Source: Dehalococcoidia bacterium
GTDB taxonomy: Bacteria; Chloroflexota; Dehalococcoidia; SZUA-161
DNA length: 64,000 nt
Assembly (NCBI GenBank): GCA_014874385.1
Contig: JACWAE010000043.1
Location: forward strand, 1-64,000
Reading direction: 5' to 3'
The first letter of the stretch is position 1. Each line of letters begins with the position of its first letter. The notes below the pieces were generated by a model. That model was not told the DNA's origin, ran no database searches, and saw only the letters and a program-made list of their open reading frames with translations. Below, in pieces: positions 14,703-44,514 of the stretch. The position numbers and the translations under genes were made by a program.

Positions 14703-15194
14703 CTATAGGAGACGTTCATGGTCAATAGGTTCGTCATTCGGAACCTTATAGTTTTTTAAGAACGAACGAAATAGTTTTGAATATTCAATATCCTTGACAG
14801 GTATAAGAAAAACTTGATCCGGTGAATCGGGTTCTCCGCCTAGTCCAAGAGTTATGTATACAGGTAATTTTTTATCGATTTCTTTATATCTTTTTAATTG
14901 AAAAGGTTTGCACCAGTCAACCTTATCTTCATAGTATGTAGAGCGATATTTTGCTTCCACAAAAAATTCTTTACCGGTTCGAATTGCCCTGAATTTAAAA
15001 TCAGGTTCTTTGCTATTTTCAATATAATCATTTTTGTTGATTGCATAGTCGTGAGTTCTCTGCAATGTAATAAATTTATCTTTAGTAAAAAGGTGTTTGC
15101 GTACATAGTCTTCAAATGCTTCGCCTTTTTTAAAACCCTCTGGTGTGCTTATCTCATCCCATACTAATTTTGTAACTTTCGAGAATAAACCCAT
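14703..15194 (-). CDS. Hypothetical PD-(D/E)XK nuclease-like protein
   Basis: 163 residues, clearly more AT-rich than its neighbours. The sequence EPDFKFRAIRTGKEFFVEAK fits the PD-x(n)-(D/E)xK core of restriction-endonuclease-fold nucleases: PD near residue 64, then EAK about 14 residues on, with an upstream acidic helix (KKGEAFEDYVRKHLF). No methyltransferase or other partner is adjacent. The ATG has AAGGAG at good distance. Direct repeats at both sides and the base composition point to horizontal acquisition. The fold assignment is by motif only; a family name cannot be given. Confidence 0.7.
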   Translation of the reverse strand: MGLFSKVTKLVWDEISTPEGFKKGEAFEDYVRKHLFTKDKFITLQRTHDYAINKNDYIENSKEPDFKFRAIRTGKEFFVEAKYRSTYYEDKVDWCKPFQLKRYKEIDKKLPVYITLGLGGEPDSPDQVFLIPVKDIEYSKLFRSFLKNYKVPNDEPIDHERLL

Positions 15195-15614
15195 TCGCTT
15201 TACTCCTTAACATAGTTTATTGTGATATTCTATAGCCATATGTTTTCCCGCTACTTGAATTATGAGGAAGAGGCAGAGTTGAAACAATCACCTTAAGGTA
15301 CTTTCTGTTGGGTACTTTACGGCTACTGAGATAGTCACTTGCGATGTATTTACTGAGGCAAGGAATAAACTAAACTGCTGACTTGACTCGTCAAAATGAC
15401 CCATTACCCGGTGCTAAGTTATCATTGGTTTTGCGGCAGAATAGTTAATGATTCCTTGCCAGAAGCATGGTAATAGTAAAAGCAGATCAGACATTCCCGG
15501 GTTTTTGCAGGGGTGGGCTATAACGTATAGATAAACGAGTACGCTAATGTAAAAAGATAGTGCGGTCGAACGCCTGGGAAATGAGCTGAAGGTGCGTGCG
15601 GGAAATGCCCTGCT
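15195..15614. other. Non-coding gap holding the right-hand direct repeat
   Basis: 420 bases without a credible ORF. It contains the second direct repeat (15429-15498); otherwise I see no RNA gene or terminator. Confidence 0.5.
15429..15498 (+). repeat. Direct repeat, right copy
   Basis: Starts TTTTGCGGCAGAATAGTTAA and ends ATCAGACATTCCC; partner of 14621-14689, 808 bases away in the same orientation. Confidence 0.7.
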
Positions 15615-33358: not shown

Positions 33359-33362
33359 TTGT

Positions 33363-33391
33363 AGCGTCGCCACTCCGTGGCGACGCTTTTT
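33363..33391 (+). terminator. Rho-independent terminator
   Basis: AGCGTCGCCA, loop CTCCG, TGGCGACGCT, then a run of five T. It separates the methyltransferase unit from the next promoter. Confidence 0.85.
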
Positions 33392-33407
33392 ACGTCTGGA
33401 TTACCGC

Positions 33408-33436
33408 TTGCGCCAGTATATTCGTAGCAGTAGAAT
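33408..33436 (+). promoter_or_regulatory. Promoter-like element, family 2, copy 1 (SDR)
   Basis: TTGCGC (33408-33413), 17-base spacer containing GTATA and GCAG, TAGAAT (33431-33436). Same layout as 38986 and 42685. It is 40 bases before the SDR start. Confidence 0.65.
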
Positions 33437-33475
33437 GTGGCAACTGGGAGAGCTATCTTTTAAGGAGGTGGGACT

Positions 33476-34264
33476 ATGATAGGCAGCAAAGAGAAATATG
33501 CCATCGTAACAGGCGCTTCGTGCGGAATTGGCTACGAGCTGGCAAAGATATTGGCTAAGGATGGCAAGGACATTGCGGTAGTAGCGAGGAGTCGAGACAG
33601 ACTTGAGGACTTGAAGAAAGAGATTGAGAACAAACACGGAACGAAAGTGAAGGTTTTGGCCAAAGACCTGTCCGACCCGAAAGCGCCACCGGAGATATTC
33701 TCCGAACTGGAAAAGGAAAACATTGGCGTAGACGTACTGGTCAATAACGCTGGCTTCGGTGTCTACGGCATGTTCCTGGAAACAGACCTGCAGGAAGAGC
33801 TGGACATGATTCAGGTGAATGCTGCTTCCCTGATCCATTTGACCAAGCTGTTCCTCAAGGGGATGGTGGAGGACAAATCGGGCTACATATTGAATGCTGC
33901 ATCTTTGTGCGCATTTCTATCCACGCCGTTGGAGTCGGTCTACTGCGCCACCAAATCCTTTGTCCTGCATTTCTCGGAAGCTCTGGCTAACGAACTGCAG
34001 GGGACCGGGGTCAAAGTTACCATTCTTTGCGTTGGGCTGGCGAGTACCGAGTTTCATAAGAGGGCACGTATGGAGAACTGCAGGGCCACAAAGCGGAAAA
34101 TGATGGATGCTGCCACCGTTGCTGAAGCTGGCTATAAGGCTCTGAAAAGGGGTAAGCTCATCGAGATCCCCGGCCTGGAATACAAATTTGCGCCGTGGTT
34201 TGCCAGATTTGCCCCCAGAAATGTGGTTACCAGAGTCGTCCGCTCGCAGCACGAGCCTGTGTGA
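33476..34264 (+). CDS. Short-chain dehydrogenase/reductase (DltE/YqjQ-like)
   Basis: 262 residues. Cofactor motif VTGASCGIGYE, then VLVNNAGFGVYG and catalytic VYCATKSFVLHF. The R39-R41 pair in VARSRDRLEDL after strand 2 suggests NADP. The closest general type is the acyl-reducing SDR group that acts on lipids or ketones. AAGGAGG precedes the ATG. Confidence 0.9.
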   Translation: MIGSKEKYAIVTGASCGIGYELAKILAKDGKDIAVVARSRDRLEDLKKEIENKHGTKVKVLAKDLSDPKAPPEIFSELEKENIGVDVLVNNAGFGVYGMFLETDLQEELDMIQVNAASLIHLTKLFLKGMVEDKSGYILNAASLCAFLSTPLESVYCATKSFVLHFSEALANELQGTGVKVTILCVGLASTEFHKRARMENCRATKRKMMDAATVAEAGYKALKRGKLIEIPGLEYKFAPWFARFAPRNVVTRVVRSQHEPV

Positions 34265-34316
34265 AGCAGGCTAATATTTCAATCAAAGCCAGCCCGGCGA
34301 TTACAGGCCGTACCCG

Positions 34317-34937
34317 CTAGTCAGCAATACGATCAACCACGGTTACCCACTTGGTTTTCTCTACATCCTTGTATAGCACAACCTCCCGGGTTTTCTGTAC
34401 ATCTCTGTACATCGTGACTTCCCTTGTTTTTTGCACATTATTGTACTGTATGACCTGCTTTGTTGGTGGCGTAACCGAATATGTGAAACTACGTATATAG
34501 TCTCCGGTATATCTCAGCCAAACGCCTTGCTGCGTACCGCCGGCGATGAACTGAGAGGCGTATCTGGTAGTTGTTGCGCCACCCATGGTAACCAGAAAGT
34601 AAGCTACTGTGAATGTGCCGCTGTTAGAATCGCTATTGTTGATTATCACTACGCAATCAGAGGCAATCTGCCCTGAAACGCCCTGTATACTTGTACCTGC
34701 CACTGTGTAGCTTAAAGGAGCTGTAGTGACATAAGGTTGCGCTTCATAGTAGGTCTCGTTTGCAATATAAGGCTCCTGTTCAACATAGGTCTCGTTTGCT
34801 GCATAAGGTTCCTTTTCAATATACTTAGCGGGAACGACAGGGGCGAGGAAGATAAACAAGAGAGCAACCACCACTAATGCGCTGAACCCGAGCAACAAAT
34901 TCCTGCCGAGATGACCTTTTTTCTTCTCCTGTGCCAT
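34317..34937 (-). CDS. Hypothetical membrane-anchored protein with tandem repeats
   Basis: 206 residues. A lysine-rich start and one helix (LLLGFSALVVVALLFIFLAP) anchor it, with the bulk outside. Residues about 38-65 hold two or three imperfect repeats of Y-x-E-x-x-PY-x-A-NETY. The C-terminal 50 residues hold repeats of VQKTREVxxY-x-D (NNVQKTREVTMYRDVQKTRE). A central beta-rich part (SGQIASDCVVIINNSDSNSG) lies between. GAGGAGG precedes the ATG. The repeat types occur in surface proteins of archaea and Chloroflexota without known role. Confidence 0.75.
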   Translation of the reverse strand: MAQEKKKGHLGRNLLLGFSALVVVALLFIFLAPVVPAKYIEKEPYAANETYVEQEPYIANETYYEAQPYVTTAPLSYTVAGTSIQGVSGQIASDCVVIINNSDSNSGTFTVAYFLVTMGGATTTRYASQFIAGGTQQGVWLRYTGDYIRSFTYSVTPPTKQVIQYNNVQKTREVTMYRDVQKTREVVLYKDVEKTKWVTVVDRIAD

Positions 34938-35045
34938 ACCACCTCCTCACAATTTAGTAGCCGGATTATGAGGTAATTATTAGATAAATATTGGCTAAAG
35001 TCAAACCCATAGTCAAAGATGTCGTTTAGCACCTGAAGGAGTTTT

Positions 35046-35075
35046 TTGAGACTAAAGTCACATACAATTTAAAAT
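35046..35075 (+). promoter_or_regulatory. Promoter of the hsp20 gene
   Basis: TTGAGA (35046-35051), 18-base spacer, TAAAAT (35070-35075). No CIRCE inverted repeat or ROSE-type sequence was found in the leader. Confidence 0.5.
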
Positions 35076-35130
35076 ACCATGAGTACTATAGGATAAAAGC
35101 TAAGGGGGGAAACCCTAAAGGAGGTGTGAA

Positions 35131-35616
35131 ATGGCTGAGAGATACGCGCTGATCAGAAGAGAACCGTTTATCGAGGTCGCTCCCTTTGAGACTGGGATAG
35201 ACAGATTCTTCGATAATGCCCTGAGTCTTTTTGACCTGCCGTTGTACGGGTATCGGCCTCTGTTTACGGAGCTTGAAGTTCTGGCTCCATTGGAGGTCTT
35301 CGATAGTGACGGGCATGCGGTAGTCAGACTAGAGGCCCCAGGCATGAAGATGGAGGATTTTGATATCTCAGTTTCAGATGGCCTGCTCACTATAAAAGGT
35401 GAGAAGAAACATGAGGAAGAGGTCAAAAAGGAAGATTACTATTGCTCCGAAAGGACCTATGGTAGCTTCCGCAGGACGCTCTCTGTTCCCAAGGGCTTGG
35501 ATGAGAACAAGATCCATGCCACCTACGAGGATGGTGTCCTGGAACTTGTGCTGCCCAAGACCGAGGAGAAGAAGGGACGCAAGGTAAAGGTTCAAACCAG
35601 AAAAGCCAAAGGGTAG
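35131..35616 (+). CDS. Small heat shock protein, Hsp20/alpha-crystallin family
   Basis: 161 residues. The alpha-crystallin domain spans about 48-145: VRLEAPGMKMEDFDISVSDG, LLTIKGEKK, and YEDGVLELVLPK. The C-terminal extension is lysine-rich and the usual I/V-x-I/V motif is present in KVKVQ. It acts as an ATP-independent holdase. AAAGGAGG precedes the ATG. A strong hairpin follows. Confidence 0.94.
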   Translation: MAERYALIRREPFIEVAPFETGIDRFFDNALSLFDLPLYGYRPLFTELEVLAPLEVFDSDGHAVVRLEAPGMKMEDFDISVSDGLLTIKGEKKHEEEVKKEDYYCSERTYGSFRRTLSVPKGLDENKIHATYEDGVLELVLPKTEEKKGRKVKVQTRKAKG

Positions 35617-35635
35617 AATAATCCTGAAGCTGGTT

Positions 35636-35671
35636 AAGTGGCCGTCCAGGGTGTACCCTGGACGGCCACTT
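35636..35671. terminator. Perfect 16-base-stem hairpin after hsp20
   Basis: AAGTGGCCGTCCAGGG, loop TGTA, exact inverse. The T run after it is interrupted, so it may be a terminator or an mRNA-stabilising hairpin. Confidence 0.7.
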
Positions 35672-35823
35672 GCTATTCTTTTCAAAATCTGGAGGCCCAC
35701 TTGGGAACTCTCAAGAGTCCTTCTTGCAAGATGAGTCAGGGCTAGACTGCTGGATTTTATGTAACGTCGGCATTATACTACGAGGGTCGGCGAGGCACCT
35801 GAGACATCCCAAGCTTCTTGAAG

Positions 35824-36477
35824 ATGAATCAGAATAGAATTCCCAGTTGGCTAGTCAAGAGCACCTGGCTGGCAGTATTGCTCCTGCTCTATCTGGCTTA
35901 TTTCCTACTGAACAGCCCGCGAGGGCATGTTCACTCTCTGGAAATGACAGTAGACGACCGGATTCTCGTGCTGCCTGCGTTTGTCTTCCCCTACCTCTCA
36001 ATCTACGCGTTGTTGGCCATCTCAATATGGCGTTTTCTAAGAGCCGAGACAAGGATATTCACCATAGCTGCATTGGCTATAGGCCTCGACCTGGTGTTAA
36101 GCTACCTGGTGTTCCTCTTTTACCAGACCCGGGTTGAGCGTCCCGTCATACTCGGCTCCGACATCTCATCCAGCATCCTGAGATGGGTCTATTCGGTGGA
36201 CAAACCGTTCAATGCCTTTCCCAGTCTACATACCTCCACATCCACGCTACTTGTGCTGCTGTGGGGAAGAGTAGGTTCGCGTATTCAGCCGATCATAGCA
36301 TTGTGGGCAGCGCTCATCATCGCCTCCACCCTGCTCACCAAGCAGCATTATATTGCGGACGTTTTGGGAGGAGTCACCGTCGCTCTGGTGAGCTACTACG
36401 GTGCAGTTAAATTGGGCAATCTTGAAGCAAGCAGCGTATTGAAAAGATTTATGTTCTGGAGAAAACGCTCGCGGTAG
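35824..36477 (+). CDS. PAP2-family membrane phosphatase-like protein
   Basis: 217 residues with six likely membrane helices. The PAP2 motif 2 is FPSLHTSTS and motif 3 is KQHYIADVLGG, giving the two catalytic histidines; motif 1 is weak (RVERPVI). Likely acts on lipid phosphates or pyrophosphates, or is a related inositol-phosphoceramide-synthase-type transferase. ATG at 35824 chosen over TTG at 35818. Confidence 0.8.
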   Translation: MNQNRIPSWLVKSTWLAVLLLLYLAYFLLNSPRGHVHSLEMTVDDRILVLPAFVFPYLSIYALLAISIWRFLRAETRIFTIAALAIGLDLVLSYLVFLFYQTRVERPVILGSDISSSILRWVYSVDKPFNAFPSLHTSTSTLLVLLWGRVGSRIQPIIALWAALIIASTLLTKQHYIADVLGGVTVALVSYYGAVKLGNLEASSVLKRFMFWRKRSR

Positions 36478-36676
36478 CTTCCTCGAGTATCTTTCCGGCA
36501 AATTCTGTTTCCTTTCCCTCTGATATGCCAACTCCCACATAGCGCCAATCGAGTACCTTTTTCTCATCTATATCCCCCAACATATCTATTGCGGACGAGA
36601 TGAAATAGCGCTAATATTCTAGCAGGCTATTCTAGTACGAATATATTCCAAAATTTTTTACTGAGAGGTAAATACC

Positions 36677-37192
36677 ATGAAGAAAGCGCAAGATATTATG
36701 GCAAACGAGGTTGTGACGGCAAATCCTGAGATGTCTGTAGCTGCCGCTGCCAAACTGATGCTTGCAAAAGATGTCGGGTGCCTTGTGGTGTTGCAGGAAA
36801 GCAAAATAAAAGGGATAGTCACCGACCGAGACCTTATGGCTTGTGCTATAAAGCAGCATAACATCCAAGAATGCAGTATTTCGAACCACATGAGCAGCCC
36901 GGTCATGACCGCGACGCCCGATGTGCTGCTTATCAACCTGGCTCACTTGATGGCCGCAGAGCAAATCAAGCGAGTGCCTATCACCGAAGAGGGAGAGCTT
37001 GTTGGAATCGTTTCCTTCTCCGATATTGCCGAAGATATGGATGAACAGGTTGCGGGCATGTGGTCGGAATGGCTCGAGCTGATATCTGTCACAAAGACTT
37101 CTGCTCAGCATCGTAGGGGGAAGCGATTCAAAAAAAAGACTTCTACTCAGCCTCATCCTGAAAAGCGATCCGAAAGTCTCATTCGAAGCTAA
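36677..37192 (+). CDS. Protein with two CBS domains
   Basis: 171 residues. CBS 1 is about 6-60 (AQDIMANEVVTANPEMSVAA, GIVTDRDLM) and CBS 2 about 68-122 (SPVMTATPDVLL, LVGIVSFSDIAEDM). Residues 125-171 are a basic tail. Such stand-alone CBS pairs bind adenosyl nucleotides and sense energy state. GAGAGG is upstream of the ATG. Confidence 0.9.
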   Translation: MKKAQDIMANEVVTANPEMSVAAAAKLMLAKDVGCLVVLQESKIKGIVTDRDLMACAIKQHNIQECSISNHMSSPVMTATPDVLLINLAHLMAAEQIKRVPITEEGELVGIVSFSDIAEDMDEQVAGMWSEWLELISVTKTSAQHRRGKRFKKKTSTQPHPEKRSESLIRS

Positions 37193-37333
37193 GTCAAAGG
37201 ACTGCCAAACCCTCAGGCAAAGCCGGATAAGGGACTAATCTCCTCTCCCTACTAGTACCATTCGTCTATTTACCGCCTGGGCACAGGAATGTATCCTCAA
37301 CTGCATAGCAATACTTTCTTCATAGGAGGCAGT

Positions 37334-37519
37334 GTGCAGATTTCGAGATTAGAACAATGTCCCAAGTGCAAAGGCTATGTCATGCTGCAAAGAGACAGCT
37401 ACGGTTGGTACGTGGAATGCCTTCAGTGCGGTTACACTCATGACTTACTAACCTTTGCCGAGGCTGAGCAAAGGCGGGCTGAAGAAGAAGAGCTTGAGGA
37501 ACTGCGCAGTCTGCAATAG
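37334..37519 (+). CDS. Small zinc-ribbon protein
   Basis: 61 residues from a GTG at 37334, directly after AGGAGG; an ATG at 37289 would add 15 residues without a ribosome site. CPKCKGYVMLQRDSYGWYVE then CLQCGY forms a zinc ribbon, followed by an acidic helix (EAEQRRAEEEELEELR). Function unknown. Confidence 0.65.
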   Translation: MQISRLEQCPKCKGYVMLQRDSYGWYVECLQCGYTHDLLTFAEAEQRRAEEEELEELRSLQ

Positions 37520-37625
37520 TAAATAATCGAAACTGTGCGATTGGAACACGCCTCGTTCGGCTTGACGTCTTTCTGCCTGGACTTCGATGGGAAAACTTAA
37601 CTCTGAGCTGATTTGGGTTCTCTGC

Positions 37626-38513
37626 CTAACCCGGGCTGGCGTCAGACAGCCCGGTCAAGTTTTCACTCAATTGCCACAAACCTTTTTGCAATTGTATATT
37701 CCTGCACTTTGGTGAAACAAAGCTGGGGTTCAACTTGTAGAAATACTTCCCCGTCACTCCTCTGACATCATCTGAGCTGGCTAGATAGATGCTGGTCTGG
37801 GCTCCGTCCTGCGGAGAAATCATCACCAGGCTTAACATTTTTCTGAAGACCGCTTGATACCAACTGCCCTTAGGTCCAATTCTATAAATATCGGTGGCGA
37901 CAATGCCGGGATGTAAAGCATTAGCTGTGATATCAGTCTGCTTCAGCCGTTCCGACAGCTCCTGGGTGAAGAAAATAAGGGCAAGCTTGGAGGACGCGTA
38001 AGCCCCTCCGAAGCGGAATCTCTTTTTTAAATTAAGGTCGTTTAAATCGATTCGACCCCACAGATGAGCGACGGACGATACATTGATAATGCGGGCTTCC
38101 GGTGTTTGTTTGAGCAGCGGCAATAGCAGATTCGTAAGTAAAAAAGGCCCCAAATAGTTCGTCGCCATAACTATATTGAACCCGTCTTCGGTTTCCCCTC
38201 CTCCCCCACACATAATGCCTGCATTATTTATCAGCACATTCAATCGCTGATACTTCCGGCGGAATTGACTGACAAATTCCCGAATAGAGCGCAGCAATGT
38301 CAAGTCCAGTTGCATCACCTCAATTTGGGCATTGCCGCTTTCCCGCTTTATAGCCTCGCAAACAGAAACGGCCCTGGTTAGATTACGACACGCCATTACA
38401 ACGGCGGCGCCCATCTTAGCTAATCCCCTGGCTGTCTCCTTCCCTATGCCGCTGTTAGCCCCGGTGACCAGCACTATTTTCCCCTGCATAGCCTGCGTGT
38501 CCGGGTTACTCAT
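37626..38513 (-). CDS. SDR oxidoreductase, retinol-dehydrogenase-like
   Basis: 295 residues. VTGANSGIGKETARGLAKMG, ACRNLTRA after strand 2 (NADP-type Arg), LINNAGIMCG and catalytic YASSKLALIFF. The sequence is of the RDH/WWOX subgroup that often acts on ketones or lipids. It overlaps nothing; the thioesterase gene 19 bases upstream on the same strand suggests co-transcription. Confidence 0.9.
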   Translation of the reverse strand: MSNPDTQAMQGKIVLVTGANSGIGKETARGLAKMGAAVVMACRNLTRAVSVCEAIKRESGNAQIEVMQLDLTLLRSIREFVSQFRRKYQRLNVLINNAGIMCGGGGETEDGFNIVMATNYLGPFLLTNLLLPLLKQTPEARIINVSSVAHLWGRIDLNDLNLKKRFRFGGAYASSKLALIFFTQELSERLKQTDITANALHPGIVATDIYRIGPKGSWYQAVFRKMLSLVMISPQDGAQTSIYLASSDDVRGVTGKYFYKLNPSFVSPKCRNIQLQKGLWQLSENLTGLSDASPG

Positions 38514-38532
38514 TTTCCATCACAGAACACAA

Positions 38533-38937
38533 TCAGTCTCTCTTTTTGTATATGACCCAGGTTCCCAGGGCTTTGGCAACAAGCTGCCCCCCGCTCTTTA
38601 TTTCCGACTCCAGGACAGCGCTCTTGCTGCTCTTTTTAATAACAGTCGTATCGCAGATGAGCGTGCCGGATGTTATCGCCTTTAAATACACTATGCTGAC
38701 CTCGATGCTGGCACACTGCTCCCCCTCCTCTAGAATCGGAACGAGTGCAAAACCCATGCCCGAGTCCGCCATGGTGAAAAGGGCCCCTCCATGCACAGTC
38801 CCGTAGGGGTTTAGCAGTGAATCATTTACATCCAGCGAGCACTGGCTGTAACCCTTTTCCCACTTAATATAGGTCAAACCAGCAAGCTTACCGAACCGGT
38901 CAAGTTTCGCCAATTCCGGTGAAATTTTTTTCGGCAT
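38533..38937 (-). CDS. PaaI-type hotdog thioesterase
   Basis: 134 residues from ATG 38937, preceded by GAGG. The motif NPYGTVHGGALFTMADSGMG is the PaaI/YigI hotdog active-site region with the HGG turn. Probably hydrolyses acyl- or aryl-CoA thioesters. Co-oriented with the downstream SDR. Confidence 0.9.
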   Translation of the reverse strand: MPKKISPELAKLDRFGKLAGLTYIKWEKGYSQCSLDVNDSLLNPYGTVHGGALFTMADSGMGFALVPILEEGEQCASIEVSIVYLKAITSGTLICDTTVIKKSSKSAVLESEIKSGGQLVAKALGTWVIYKKRD

Positions 38938-38985
38938 TCTGTCGTCCTCTTTTCTATACTGCATTAGATACAGCTCTCATACTTC

Positions 38986-39014
38986 TTGCGGTAGTATAAA
39001 TATCGCAGTAGAAT
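38986..39014 (+). promoter_or_regulatory. Promoter-like element, family 2, copy 2 (MBL-esterase)
   Basis: TTGCGG (38986-38991), 17-base spacer with GTATA and GCAG, TAGAAT (39009-39014). Here the element is a perfect inverted repeat at its ends: CTTGCGGTA ... TACCGCAAG. 38 bases before the MBL start. Confidence 0.65.
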
Positions 39015-39052
39015 ACCGCAAGTGGTGATGCTAGCTGCAATGAGGCTTATCC

Positions 39053-39784
39053 ATGTTTGTGACCCAAAATGTCTATCAATTGAGCGGCAGGAGAGGCGCT
39101 CGACCCTCAGGTGCCAATATATTTCTGCTGCTCGACAATAGCGTTACCGTGGTTGACACAGGTCTCAGCAGCAGGACTGCGAGCATATTGAATGAGGTCA
39201 GGCAACTCGGCTACAAACCTCCCGATGTCGCCCATATTATTCTCACGCACCACCACGCCGACCACATGGGCAGCTTGGCCGAGTTGAAGAAAGCAACCGG
39301 AGCCGAGGTGATGGCGCATACTGCAGATGCGCCGTACATAAACGGGAGTCTGCCGCAGCCAGGGCCTGCCAGGCCAAAATGGCTGGCGAAAGTGCTATCT
39401 CCCTTCGGCAGGATATGGGCCAGCACACCCGTAGAAGTGGACAAGCTGCTCAACGATGGTGATGAGCTTCCCATACTCGGCGGCATCAAGATATTGCACA
39501 CCCCGGGTCACACGCCGGGCAGTATCTGCCTGTTCATACCACAGCAGAAGCTGGTCATCGTCGGTGATTTGCTTACCAACAGATTCAGGCCGGGCTTGCC
39601 CTCACGGGTGTTCACTGTTGACATGGTTCAAGAGGTGAACTCGGTTAAAAAGCTGGCCAGCGTTGACTTCGATATCATAGCCTTCGGTCACGGCAGACCT
39701 ATTTTGCATGAAGCCCGTCCTACAGTCACCCGTCTTGCCGAGAAACTTGAAAACAAGTATAAAGTCCAGGGGGCAATGAAATGA
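39053..39784 (+). CDS. Metallo-beta-lactamase-fold hydrolase
   Basis: 243 residues. Metal ligands lie in ILTHHHADHMG, with further His in HTPGHTPGS and Asp in IVGDLLTN, then AFGHGRPI. This is a glyoxalase II-like MBL with unknown ester or thioester substrate. The stop overlaps the start of the esterase gene (ATGA), so the two hydrolases are made together. Confidence 0.9.
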   Translation: MFVTQNVYQLSGRRGARPSGANIFLLLDNSVTVVDTGLSSRTASILNEVRQLGYKPPDVAHIILTHHHADHMGSLAELKKATGAEVMAHTADAPYINGSLPQPGPARPKWLAKVLSPFGRIWASTPVEVDKLLNDGDELPILGGIKILHTPGHTPGSICLFIPQQKLVIVGDLLTNRFRPGLPSRVFTVDMVQEVNSVKKLASVDFDIIAFGHGRPILHEARPTVTRLAEKLENKYKVQGAMK

Positions 39785-41511
39785 GAAGGTTTGGGGTTGC
39801 ACTGGCTCCATTACTCATTCTGGCGCTGGTCATGGGCACCATCGCCTGCGCTGGCGGAGGTACGCAGCCCGCAACCTTACATACCCCGTCGCTCTGGACA
39901 GGCGACGCTCTGGTACAAACCGTGTACGGCCCTGTCCAGGGCTTCGCAGACCAGAGTGATACCTGGGTGTGGAAGGCTATCCCGTATGCCAAGCCGCCTG
40001 TGGGCGAGCTGCGCTGGAAAGCTCCGCAGGACCCCGACCCCTGGAACGCGACACGGGCAGAAACACAATTTTGCAGCGAATGCACACAGTACACCCTCAC
40101 AGGTTCAGTCGCAGGCAGTGAAGACTGCCTCTACCTTAACATCTGGCGTCCCCAGTCTGAAGAAACGAATCTGCCCGTATATTTCTGGATACACGGCGGA
40201 GGCAACAGTGAGGGCACCGCCTCGTACGAAGGATATAACGGGGCGAACATTGCGAACAAATCCGATATGGTAGTGGTCACTGTAAACTACAGGCTCGGGC
40301 CACTGGGCTGGTTCACCTATCCCGCACTGAGGAGCGGGCAACCCGGCCACGAGCTTGACGATTCAGGCAACTACGGCACACTGGACTTGATAAAGGCGCT
40401 GCAATGGGTGCAGGCCAATATACAGGCCTTCGGCGGTAATGCCTCCAACGTCACCATTGCCGGGGAGTCGGCAGGCGCTATCAACGTTTTCTCTCTGCTT
40501 ATCTCACCGCTGGCCCATAATCTTTTCCAGAAGGCCATAGCGCAGAGCGGACTTCCTATTGCGCGCACCGCGGCAGATGGCGAAGCGAGCGCCCACGATG
40601 TAATTTTGAAGCTGCTGGTGAATGACGGGAATGCCACCGACGCAGATTCCGCCCAGAAGTATCTGGATAATCTGTCCGACTCTCAAATTGCAGCCTATTT
40701 AAGGTCTAAAAGCGCTGCCGAATTGTTGAAAGCCTATGACACAGGGTATTTCGGCATGATTGCGTTCCCTTACATTTTTGAAGACGGCACAGTCATCCCC
40801 GAGACCGGTTACGACATGTTTATGAACGGGACTTATCCGAATAAAGTGCCGCTTATTATAGGGACGAACAAGGAGGAGACCAAGGTATTTCTGTTCCTGG
40901 ACCCGACATTTATCGGCAAAGACGAATTGTATCAGACCGTAGCATCCTTCAGCAGTGACCTCTGGAAGGCCGTGGGAGCAGACGGTGTGGCTCGTGAATT
41001 GAGCTCACACCCAGACCAGCCCAACGTCTACGTTTATCAATTCCTCTGGGGTTCGGGTGGAGACACCGGCAACAGCGTAATTCCGCCCCCGTGGGGTTTC
41101 AAGCTCGGCGCATGTCACTCCCTGGACATCCCCTTCTTCTTCGGCAACGATATCTGGAACAGCCCCCTGGACCAATTGGTGTTTACCAAAGATAACCGCG
41201 CAGGCAGGGAGGCGCTCTCCAGCGCCATGATGGCATATGTCGCGCAGTTCGCCCGCACCGGCGACCCCAACAAGCCTGGAACGACCCTCACTGAGTGGTC
41301 GCCCTGGTCCAACGCTGCTAACGGACCAAAGTGCATTCTATTCAACGTACAGGGAGACGTGCCAGACCTAACCATGTCTGATGTAGAGCTTACCGAATCA
41401 GGCGTGGAGGTGAGGCTGGCATCCGAAGTCCCCGAGCCGCAGTACTCCGAGATAATTCAATACCTCCGCAAAATGAGCCTGATGTTCGAGCTGGAGCTGA
41501 CACTGCCTTAG
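39781..41511 (+). CDS. Type B carboxylesterase, predicted lipoprotein
   Basis: 576 residues. A signal peptide ends in the lipobox GTIAC, so it is probably anchored outside the membrane. The alpha/beta-hydrolase core has the oxyanion segment FWIHGGGNSEG, the nucleophile elbow IAGESAGAINV, the acid around GTNKEETKV and the histidine in GACHSLDIPFFFG. This is the para-nitrobenzyl-esterase/cholinesterase-like family. Coupled to the MBL gene upstream. Confidence 0.93.
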   Translation: MRRFGVALAPLLILALVMGTIACAGGGTQPATLHTPSLWTGDALVQTVYGPVQGFADQSDTWVWKAIPYAKPPVGELRWKAPQDPDPWNATRAETQFCSECTQYTLTGSVAGSEDCLYLNIWRPQSEETNLPVYFWIHGGGNSEGTASYEGYNGANIANKSDMVVVTVNYRLGPLGWFTYPALRSGQPGHELDDSGNYGTLDLIKALQWVQANIQAFGGNASNVTIAGESAGAINVFSLLISPLAHNLFQKAIAQSGLPIARTAADGEASAHDVILKLLVNDGNATDADSAQKYLDNLSDSQIAAYLRSKSAAELLKAYDTGYFGMIAFPYIFEDGTVIPETGYDMFMNGTYPNKVPLIIGTNKEETKVFLFLDPTFIGKDELYQTVASFSSDLWKAVGADGVARELSSHPDQPNVYVYQFLWGSGGDTGNSVIPPPWGFKLGACHSLDIPFFFGNDIWNSPLDQLVFTKDNRAGREALSSAMMAYVAQFARTGDPNKPGTTLTEWSPWSNAANGPKCILFNVQGDVPDLTMSDVELTESGVEVRLASEVPEPQYSEIIQYLRKMSLMFELELTLP

Positions 41512-41606
41512 CCTAGCATCGCCTCGCCAACGTCATTTCCGGTTCTAATTTTATGATTGGATTCTGCACGCATATCCGTGCAGTAAGTTCACGTAGTGGT
41601 GCCTCT

Positions 41607-41933
41607 TTAGCAGTCTTTCTTCAGAAGCTCGTCAAAGCATGCGATAGCTTTGTTTTTATCGCGGTACCTTCCAAAGAGGACTCGGTGCTCTAAATCCGTC
41701 TTCGGTATGCAAACCTTCCATTGCACAGCCTTAGGTGACTCCCATAAATCTAGGTAAGCGCAGAAGTTGTATGGCGCTCTCCGAAGAAGAAGCCATCCGC
41801 CTTTGTCCCTCTGACCAGGTACCATTTTGAGTTGTTTATGGGCTGTCTTGAACTCGTTCAGCATATTGTTAATCATCGCCACACGCTGCGCGATATCATC
41901 TAGCGCATTTTTAATCTCTTCACACCCTTCCAT
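41607..41933 (-). CDS. Hypothetical protein
   Basis: 108 residues from ATG 41933, which follows GGAGG. Helical N-terminus (EEIKNALDDIAQRVAMINNM) then a mixed part with three tryptophans (GGWLLLRR, LWESPKAVQWKVCIP). Not recognised; composition normal for the region. Confidence 0.6.
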   Translation of the reverse strand: MEGCEEIKNALDDIAQRVAMINNMLNEFKTAHKQLKMVPGQRDKGGWLLLRRAPYNFCAYLDLWESPKAVQWKVCIPKTDLEHRVLFGRYRDKNKAIACFDELLKKDC

Positions 41934-42063
41934 AGTCTTTCCTCCCTCTCCAGGCATCCGCTCAAGCTCCCATTTGGTGCTGGTACGTTCTTATGGAGTG
42001 TCCACCCGTATATTGCGAAACCAGCAGCCACACCCAATAGAAACAAGAGTATGCTATCATTAT

Positions 42064-42456
42064 TTAAAATTCTATTCGGCGTGTAAGAAGAAAGTCTTCT
42101 AGTTTAGCTTTGTATTCCTTTTCAGTATTGCTTTGGATAGCACCTATTATCCATTTTGAGTATTCAGATTTTAACTCCTTATAGAAATCGCTTTCTTTAT
42201 CTTTTTCTATGGCTATTATCGATTCTGGGCAAAAAATTTTAACAAGCATTTGTTTTCCTTTAAATTCATCATTACTTGTATCGTTTCCTTGGTAGCTATC
42301 AACAAAAGTCAGATAAATGTTCTTGAAAAACTGGTCTAGGCCGGAATTTTTAGTAATAATATATCCAAGACCTTTTTGATGATAGTCGCTTAAAGAAGGA
42401 TTTACGATGAATTTAAATGTGATTCCAGAAGGAATAATCATGTTATGCTTTGCCAT
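42064..42456 (-). CDS. AT-rich hypothetical protein
   Basis: About 130 residues from ATG 42456. Lys-, Tyr- and Phe-rich with no motif I can name. Its base composition is much more AT-rich than its neighbours, similar to the nuclease-like gene at 14703, which suggests recent transfer. Confidence 0.55.
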   Translation of the reverse strand: MAKHNMIIPSGITFKFIVNPSLSDYHQKGLGYIITKNSGLDQFFKNIYLTFVDSYQGNDTSNDEFKGKQMLVKIFCPESIIAIEKDKESDFYKELKSEYSKWIIGAIQSNTEKEYKAKLEDFLLTRRIEF

Positions 42457-42807
42457 CCCATAACCCCTTTCACGACCTTTCACCATTCGGTGAGGTTCTC
42501 ACCCAAGCCCCCGAGTCAACTTGCTCGCGGCTCGCGCTCCATTATCCTCTCCTTTGTATACGATAAAAGTGCAAGAATGTCAAGCGCTGGGAAGGAGCGG
42601 TGTTGTTCCAAAGCGAAGGATGACGGGGAAGGATGCAGAAACATCGGCGTGAGTAACCAAGTCAAAAATCTGTTCATAGACTTCTTGTGCCAGTATACTT
42701 ATGGCAGTAGAATATCGTAAGTAGCTCACTCACAAAACCAGGAAGCGAAAAACAGGTGTCAATAGCAGTGCTACTTACTCCACGATAGAGAATAGGGGAG
42801 GCTAATC
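42457..42807. other. Intergenic region upstream of the CoA-disulfide reductase
   Basis: About 350 bases with the family-2 promoter element at 42685-42713 as the only recognisable signal. Confidence 0.5.
42685..42713 (+). promoter_or_regulatory. Promoter-like element, family 2, copy 3 (CoA-disulfide reductase)
   Basis: TTGTGC (42685-42690), 17-base spacer with GTATA and GCAG, TAGAAT (42708-42713). The flanks CTTGTGCCA and TATCGTAAG keep a partial inverted repeat. 94 bases before the gene start. Confidence 0.65.
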
Positions 42808-44514
42808 ATGAAGCGGGATATGGAGAACAAAGAAGGGGACGGGAAACAAAGACTATTGATAGTGGGCGGGGTCGCTGGCGGCGCATCCTGCGCGGCGCGG
42901 GCGAGGAGGATGTCCGAAAAAATAGAAATCATTATGTTCGAGCGCGGGCGTTACGTCTCATTCGCCAACTGCGGGCTTCCTTACTACGTGGGTAATGTAA
43001 TTACTGACGAGAGAGACCTGCTGGTGGCCACACCTAATTTATTCAGGAGGAGATTCAACATCGACGTCCGACTTCAGAGTGATGTCAGGGCAATCGATCG
43101 GCAGAAGCAGGAAATCGAGGTGCAGAATCTGCAAACAGGGGAGATATATCACGAAAAATACAATGCCCTCGTATTAGCCCCCGGAGCATCACCCATCCGC
43201 CCTCCGCTCCCCGGCATCGACCTGCCTGCCATATACAGCATCAGAACGATACCGGACAGCCGCCAGATAAGGGACTGGATTATCGAGAGAGACGTCAAGC
43301 AGGCTGTTATTGTAGGCGGCGGCTTCATTGGTCTGGAAATGGCGGAGAATCTGACCAGAAGAGGCATTTCAGTAACCATCATTGAGATGATGCCGCAGCT
43401 TATGCCTTTACTCGACCCGGAGATGGCCGTACCGCTTCAAGAGCATGTGATAGCAAATGGCGTCAATCTATGTCTTGGTGACGCTGTTTCCGGATTCTCT
43501 CGAAATAATGATGGTAATTCGATTACGGTATCTACAAAGTCCGGTAAAAGTTACTCCGCTGATATGGTTTTGCTTGCTATTGGCGTGCGCCCCGAGATAT
43601 CGCTGGCCAGAGAAGCAGGGCTCGAGATAGGAAAATTGGGAGGAATACGTGTTAACCATCAGATGCGCACCAGTGACGAGCACATTTGGGCAGTCGGTGA
43701 CGCTGTGGAAGCATGTGATTTCGTCACCGGCGAGTGGACTCTCATACCGCTGGCTGGTCCTGCTAACAGACAGGGGAGAATAGCTGCGGACACTATTCTC
43801 GGGCGCAATTCCTCATTTCGCGGTGTTCAAGCGACCGCAGTGTGCAAAGTCTTCAATATGACAGTTGCCGCAACCGGTGTCAGTGAAAGAACTCTAAGGC
43901 GTACAGGCAGCACCGGTAAGATAGGGGAATACGAGAAAATCTATTTGCACCCCGGACATCACGTAAACTATTACCCCGGAGCAAAACCTATCACGATTAA
44001 GCTGCTCTTCTCCCCGGCGAACGGCAGGGTCCTCGGAGCTCAGGCGGTTGGCGAGGAAGGTGTGGACAAACGCATCGACGTAATCTCGATGGCCATACAG
44101 AAAGGTGCCACGGTCTTCGATCTGGAAGAAGCAGAGCTATGCTATGCGCCTCAGTTCGGGGCGGCCAAGGACCCTGTCAACATTGCCGGTATGATCGCCT
44201 CCAATATTTTGCGTGGCGACGCTGCAGTGGCTCACTGGGAGGATATTGACCGGACGCAGTCTACTATCCTGGATGTGCGTGAACCGGGCGAGTTCCTCAT
44301 GGGCCATTACGATGGAGCCATAAACATACCGCTGGGTACGCTGCGGGACCGCATGGGTGATTTACCACGCGATAAAGAGATACTGGCATATTGCTCGGTA
44401 GGTCAGAGATCGTATTACGCCTCTCGTGCCCTGCGGCTCAATGGATTCAAAGCTAAGAATGTATCCGGCGGCATGACGACCTACCTGGCACGAAAGAGTT
44501 TGAAAAGCTCATAA
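42808..44514 (+). CDS. CoA-disulfide reductase with fused rhodanese domain
   Basis: 568 residues. Residues 14-450 are an FAD/NAD(P)-dependent reductase with LLIVGGVAGGASCAARARR, redox cysteine C55 in SFANCGLPYY and VVGGGF-like NAD site AVIVGGGFIGLEMAE. Residues about 470-565 are a rhodanese with loop cysteine near C530 in AYCSVGQRS. Such fusions reduce CoA disulfide or CoA per- or polysulfide and serve sulfur and redox homeostasis in anaerobes. GGGGAGG precedes the ATG. Confidence 0.93.
   Translation: MKRDMENKEGDGKQRLLIVGGVAGGASCAARARRMSEKIEIIMFERGRYVSFANCGLPYYVGNVITDERDLLVATPNLFRRRFNIDVRLQSDVRAIDRQKQEIEVQNLQTGEIYHEKYNALVLAPGASPIRPPLPGIDLPAIYSIRTIPDSRQIRDWIIERDVKQAVIVGGGFIGLEMAENLTRRGISVTIIEMMPQLMPLLDPEMAVPLQEHVIANGVNLCLGDAVSGFSRNNDGNSITVSTKSGKSYSADMVLLAIGVRPEISLAREAGLEIGKLGGIRVNHQMRTSDEHIWAVGDAVEACDFVTGEWTLIPLAGPANRQGRIAADTILGRNSSFRGVQATAVCKVFNMTVAATGVSERTLRRTGSTGKIGEYEKIYLHPGHHVNYYPGAKPITIKLLFSPANGRVLGAQAVGEEGVDKRIDVISMAIQKGATVFDLEEAELCYAPQFGAAKDPVNIAGMIASNILRGDAAVAHWEDIDRTQSTILDVREPGEFLMGHYDGAINIPLGTLRDRMGDLPRDKEILAYCSVGQRSYYASRALRLNGFKAKNVSGGMTTYLARKSLKSS

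Follow-up and report, generated by a model that had tools for sequence, protein, structure and literature searches.

The DNA analysed here (the window) is a stretch of 64,000 nucleotides from a Dehalococcoidia genome, part of contig C112 of a 2.8-Mb assembly in 118 contigs (G000). It carries three near-identical palindromic sequences, each upstream of a gene, and the question raised by this locus is what these sequences are, what reads them and in which direction. A preliminary description took them for three one-way promoters, preceding an SDR gene, an MBL-lipoprotein esterase operon and a CoA-disulfide reductase gene, and proposed that a repressor bound over the palindrome controls all three units, perhaps in an ester/aldehyde or redox stress response.

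A 34-base consensus has exactly three matches in the window (copies 1 to 3, each of 38 bp; Table 1) and none in 100 dinucleotide shuffles. The layout originally described is confirmed: a -35 hexamer (TTGCGC, TTGCGG and TTGTGC, respectively), a 17-base spacer in which GTATA and GCAG have fixed positions, and then TAGAAT. From the end of the -10 hexamer to the ATG there are 39 bases for the SDR gene, 38 for the MBL gene and 94 for the CoA-disulfide-reductase-like gene, in agreement with the 38 to 94 given before. Of the three, copy 2 has the best outer palindrome, with ends that read CTTGCGGTA and TACCGCAAG. Two minus-strand genes, for a 4HBT thioesterase and then an SDR, run divergently from this copy at a distance of 20 bp, and by its predicted promoters it is a two-way site, serving the thioesterase and SDR genes leftward and the MBL and esterase genes rightward. 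Copies 1 and 3 are probably forward-only; in copy 1 the reverse -35 arm has decayed to TTGCCA and the left-hand gene is co-oriented. The three copies do precede the genes named for them, but the divergent pair at copy 2 had been missed, and copy 3 is absent at the same place in the congeneric genome G001; there the CoA-disulfide reductase gene comes 87 bp after the MBL gene and has no element of its own. A weak fourth site consists of the forward half; its G001 orthologue matches better and carries TCGCTGTAGAATGTCACAA. The small gene behind this site matches Pfam only below threshold (McrBC-like, E=0.0014). Just before copy 1, a hairpin followed by T residues (33360-33393, GTCGCCACTCCGTGGCGACGCTTTTT) ends a methyltransferase unit, and G001 has a hairpin of different sequence at this place.

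Table 1. Element copies, predicted promoters and neighbouring genes in the window
Feature	Position	Strand	Remarks
Element copy 1	33407..33444	+	Upstream of SDR gene; 34-base consensus and profile matches; 35/38 identical to G001 orthologue
Element copy 2	38985..39022	+	Best palindrome, divergent genes on either side; 38/38 identical to G001 orthologue
Copy 2, forward promoter	38986-38991 / 39009-39014	+	Predicted from sequence
Copy 2, reverse promoter	39021-39016 / 38998-38993	-	Predicted from sequence
Element copy 3	42684..42721	+	Upstream of CoA-disulfide-reductase-like gene; 34-base consensus and profile matches
Weak fourth copy, forward half	15218..15243	-	TAGAATATCACAA; E=0.11; 24 bp before small gene 14703-15194 (-)
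SDR family oxidoreductase, forward target of copy 1	33476..34264	+	PF00106, E=4.6e-46
SDR, second gene of copy 2 reverse unit	37626..38513	-	PF00106, E=4.1e-42
Hotdog-fold (4HBT) thioesterase, reverse target of copy 2	38533..38964	-	PF03061, E=7.4e-12; TIGR00369 above cut-off
MBL-fold hydrolase, forward target of copy 2	39053..39784	+	PF00753, E=5.1e-35
Carboxylesterase, second gene of copy 2 forward unit	39781..41511	+	PF00135, E=3.1e-97; predicted lipoprotein-like N terminus, lipobox-like start
CoA-disulfide-reductase-like, C-terminal rhodanese domain, forward target of copy 3	42808..44514	+	TIGR03385 best match (E=8.4e-145), yet 483 bits against a curated cut-off of 579; Rhodanese PF00581

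The consensus of the element, CTTGCGnYAkTATACATATCGCrGTAGAATrTCGCAAG, can be read as a promoter on either strand: TTGCGn, 17 bp and TAGAAT on the forward strand, and TTGCGA, 17 bp and TATACT or TATAAT on the reverse strand. These two promoters are fully overlapped and stand face to face, with each -35 (a TTGCG arm) at the start region of the opposite promoter and each -10 within the opposite spacer. The symmetry is broken by a central TCGC just before the forward -10, which is part of the forward half. TTGCGA fits TTGACA at only four of six positions, and the element's promoter was not called by a consensus promoter scanner. Some copies retain only the forward half (L046, L050, L051 and L054), others only the reverse half (L098, L101, L104, L105 and L106). 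A further locus, L102 (G003 C307:5328-5350; CTTGCGGTAGTATACATATCGCAAG), resembles the element minus the 13 bp between its two ATATCGC repeats.

The presence of each half was compared with that of its own gene at 78 non-identical sites from eight genomes, scoring the reverse -10 as intact when it read TAnnnT and counting a divergent gene within 150 bp; orthologous sites among the 78 are non-independent, and the model that collected them contained both halves. Genes are suitably placed on both sides at 16 sites, on the forward side only at 30, on the reverse side only at 14 and on neither at 18. By Fisher tests, whose p-values are optimistic because some of the sites share ancestry and the gene calls were made in this analysis, an intact reverse -10 tracks a divergent left-hand gene (28/55 sites versus 2/23 without it, p=3.5e-4) and shows no link to forward genes (p=0.80), while TAGAAT tracks the right-hand, forward gene (44/64 versus 2/14 without it, p=2.4e-4) and shows none to reverse genes (p=0.14). 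On these statistics the element is two-way, carrying a predicted promoter on each strand. The idea of three promoters sharing a palindrome is borne out as regards the shared element, but the reverse-strand promoter had gone unnoticed.

The copies in the window belong to a family dispersed over the genome. A 22-base pattern with up to three mismatches has 25 matches in G000 as against 7 for its reversed control; G000 contains TAGAATNTCGCAA 13 times and TTG-N14-TCGYNGTAGAAT 14 times, G001 contains them 8 and 10 times, respectively, and the reversed controls have no match. At E<=0.1, a sequence-only profile built from 18 sites yields 27 sites in G000, 18 in G001 and 8, 12, 6, 4, 3 and 5 in G003 to G008, which are of the same family, but none in G002, also of this family, or in any of the 31 remaining genomes sampled; besides G000, seven of eight family genomes contain sites (3-18 each). 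When 294 genomes of the class were searched at E<=1e-4 with stricter filters, matches came from family members and from G138, a genome of another family with one site, so that no site was found in 284 of the 285 class genomes outside the family. The G138 site (L252, C31:9598-9637), the only one found in another family, lies between divergent FAD oxidoreductase-like and acyl-CoA dehydrogenase genes. Among 84,980 species represented by one genome each, an exact 27-base pattern matches the Dehalococcoidia- or Chloroflexi-labelled MAGs DBS2-1.bin62, bin1158 and E44_bin56, and also one 3.1-kb contig binned as Desulfobacterales (L220, JABXJW010000337.1, 3151 bp). Of all copies of the element, the one on this contig scores best; it stands next to a MarR gene of a group enriched in the family, and for carrying that gene the contig is perhaps misbinned, or perhaps transferred. 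The strict pattern has no match in viral contigs, and the literature on Dehalococcoidia regulons contained nothing matching the element.

Almost all copies are intergenic, mostly 20-150 bp before gene starts, and five orthologous pairs show 92-100% identity in the motif as against 61-98% in the flanks, the motif being better conserved than most of these. Because copies are many, almost all intergenic and conserved in relatives, the element withstands the objections that the preliminary description had itself raised, namely a lack of further copies and of conservation in related genomes, or a location in coding regions. We conclude that this is a real, dispersed, conserved and nearly family-specific sequence element. 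Its targets include genes for SDRs, thioesterase, MBL and alpha/beta hydrolases, acyl-CoA dehydrogenases, nitroreductases, NMO, amidohydrolase, FGGY kinase, PFL-like protein, acetoacetate decarboxylase and zinc ADH; they also include genes for GmrSD/HNH and NucS-like nucleases, a TIR protein, ComEA-like, DegV, TPR and GYD proteins and several orphans. Oxidoreductases and hydrolases are common among them, with no single pathway in evidence.

Several observations suggest that the element is read by a protein besides RNA polymerase. Among 24 sites collected without regard to the right arm, TCGCAA (up to one mismatch) is found in 18, the chance expectation being 0.5% per site, and several sites of this sample that lack the reverse -10 still keep an arm close to TCGCAA. 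The arm is thus kept where the reverse promoter is dead, which makes an additional reader probable. Similarly, of 31 sites collected without the core, 28 have the central C of TCGC and 28 the central G. Both TCGCAA and TCGC fall outside the positions normally read by sigma-70, and the inverted repeat, which overlaps the promoters, is conserved beyond promoter needs. The complementarity of the arms equals the independence expectation at 15 of 15 position pairs; in the absence of covariation, the arms are not kept as a hairpin, and this fits reading by a protein. An RNA structure was ruled out by the same result together with the lack of any Rfam match in the window.

We consider it rather probable that each copy is a bidirectional promoter-operator of 38-46 bp, specific to the family and with a shared operator. 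Two sigma-70-type promoters would overlap on opposite strands within each copy, and the outer arms (TTGCG/CGCAA) together with the asymmetric TCGC core would be read by a family-specific DNA-binding protein. Placed over both promoters, this protein would in the simplest outcome repress transcription both ways and release it jointly upon a signal; where a neighbouring gene is missing, the matching half would decay, leaving a one-way site. Sequence statistics show the dispersed family, the two promoters, the tie of each half to its own gene and the near confinement to one family; transcription in vivo, the protein, the signal and repression rather than activation are all what we infer, repression because the site of the putative protein overlaps both promoters. 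Such a shared-operator mechanism is likely, and the mixture of targets, unusual for one specific repressor, counts as a point against it, as do the imperfect match of TTGCGA to TTGACA, the negative result of the promoter scanner and the failure to find a regulator.

Flank comparison revealed gene-plus-element units with new partners across the element. A gene for an 80-aa orphan protein without Pfam match (L034, L076, L082 and L100; G000 C2:5203-5442, G001 C98 and C59, G004 C10) is divergent from the element in all four copies, one of them with a stop, and has a different gene on the opposite side every time; homology between these copies begins at the outer arm of the element, and the DNA beyond is unrelated. 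L032 and L040 have only the right flank in common, L031 and L033 only the left. At G001 C59, a single element links a small gene, accompanied in G000 by an element of its own, with a DHDPS gene for which G008 likewise has a separate element. Because a gene that keeps its promoter also gives one-sided conservation, recombination at the elements is only a possibility, and we regard as unlikely an interchangeable, family-specific two-way module in which dozens of near-identical 38-bp elements, each capable of driving the genes on both sides, answer to one global regulator and recombination between copies swaps the flanking genes. The 80-aa protein itself cannot be a family-wide small regulator, being present in only three genomes and having no Pfam domain above cut-off.

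We likewise doubt that RNA polymerase alone, with the main sigma factor or an alternative one of the family, reads the whole consensus without a separate operator protein. It would then prefer TTGC at -35, TCGCnG before the -10 and TCGCAA after it, and the element would be an unregulated or sigma-controlled class of bidirectional promoters. The mixed target genes would suit this explanation, as would the occurrence, in some of the family's MarR promoters, of TTGC as the -35 preceding TATAAT, and the failure to find a regulator, but the symmetric outer arms and the conservation of TCGCAA and TCGC speak against it. So does the sigma-factor repertoire, which shows no correspondence with the sites: G005 and G007, which do bear sites, each have only two sigma-70-region-2 genes, whereas G002 has seven and no site.

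The search for a regulator covered TetR, MarR and sigma factors and identified no repressor of the kind proposed for the palindrome. TetR is excluded as the family-wide regulator, TetR_N being absent from three site-bearing genomes. The MarR subfamily typified by a gene in C46 has several copies per genome (in G000, C46:2373-2891, C86, C81, C102 and C105; likewise in other family genomes) and is nearly absent in sampled relatives. Its members, at about 44-69% identity to the C46 protein, occur in nine of nine family genomes, and at >44% identity in one of 12 other genomes searched. That this group should be the regulator, autoregulated through the element, is a special case of the promoter-operator explanation; it draws on gene starts 51 bp from a site in C46 and, on L220, 38 bp from the site that scores best of all, yet it fits poorly. 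Most members, about 24 besides these, lack the element upstream; the group is present in G002, where there are no sites, and missing from G138, which does have one. We judge it quite improbable.

Very little credence can be given to the stress repressor over three one-way promoters. Nitroreductases, SDRs, thioesterases, NMO and the CoA-disulfide-reductase-like gene do lie near sites, but many targets (ComEA-like, DegV, nucleases, TIR, TPR and others) are unrelated to stress chemistry and make the set too mixed for such a regulon, the reverse promoters are clear, and conservation in G001 does not extend to the third target. A REPIN- or MITE-like sequence, a small mobile or repeat element containing promoter sequences incidentally, would agree with a copy number ranging from 0 to 27, the single copy in G138, the partner changes and the one-sided flank sharing noted above, but is very improbable given arms without covariation, copies mostly 20-150 bp before gene starts with halves matched to genes, conserved orthologous positions and the unrelated flanks of most copies.

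The two-way promoter-operator would give a Dehalococcoidia family known here only as MAGs a genome-wide regulatory signal, and a bait for its regulator. Like divergent operators of the TetR/MarR type, it offers palindromic sites over promoters between divergent genes; those operators usually lie beside their own regulator gene, whereas only one of the 78 sites, plus L220, adjoins a MarR gene. The nearest single-locus analogue is the biotin operator bioO of E. coli, which has inverted-repeat arms and overlapping face-to-face promoters. This 40-bp operator is bound by BirA, which represses the divergent bioA and bioBFCD (PMC4382993). While bioO is a single locus whose regulator and signal are known, copies of the element are scattered over mixed genes, with a different arm sequence and a putative regulator. 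Published bacterial bidirectional promoters, which are favoured between divergent genes in chromosomes, have a near-symmetric shared -10 and starts 7-25 bp apart, mostly 18 (Middlemiss et al. 2023, PMC10268837). In both cases transcription begins on either strand of a single piece of DNA, here as a prediction, but the element contains two complete overlapping promoters with separate -10s and their own -35s, and its predicted starts lie about 35 bp apart, which places it, judged by sequence, outside the published definition (7-25 bp, shared -10). In addition, a single sequence recurs about 27 times here; no such repetition is described for the published promoters. Bacterial bidirectional promoters have mostly been seen as arising incidentally from -10 symmetry. 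In this family the two-way layout seems to be maintained by selection, to recur genome-wide as a standard part, and to lose one half where only one neighbour needs it.
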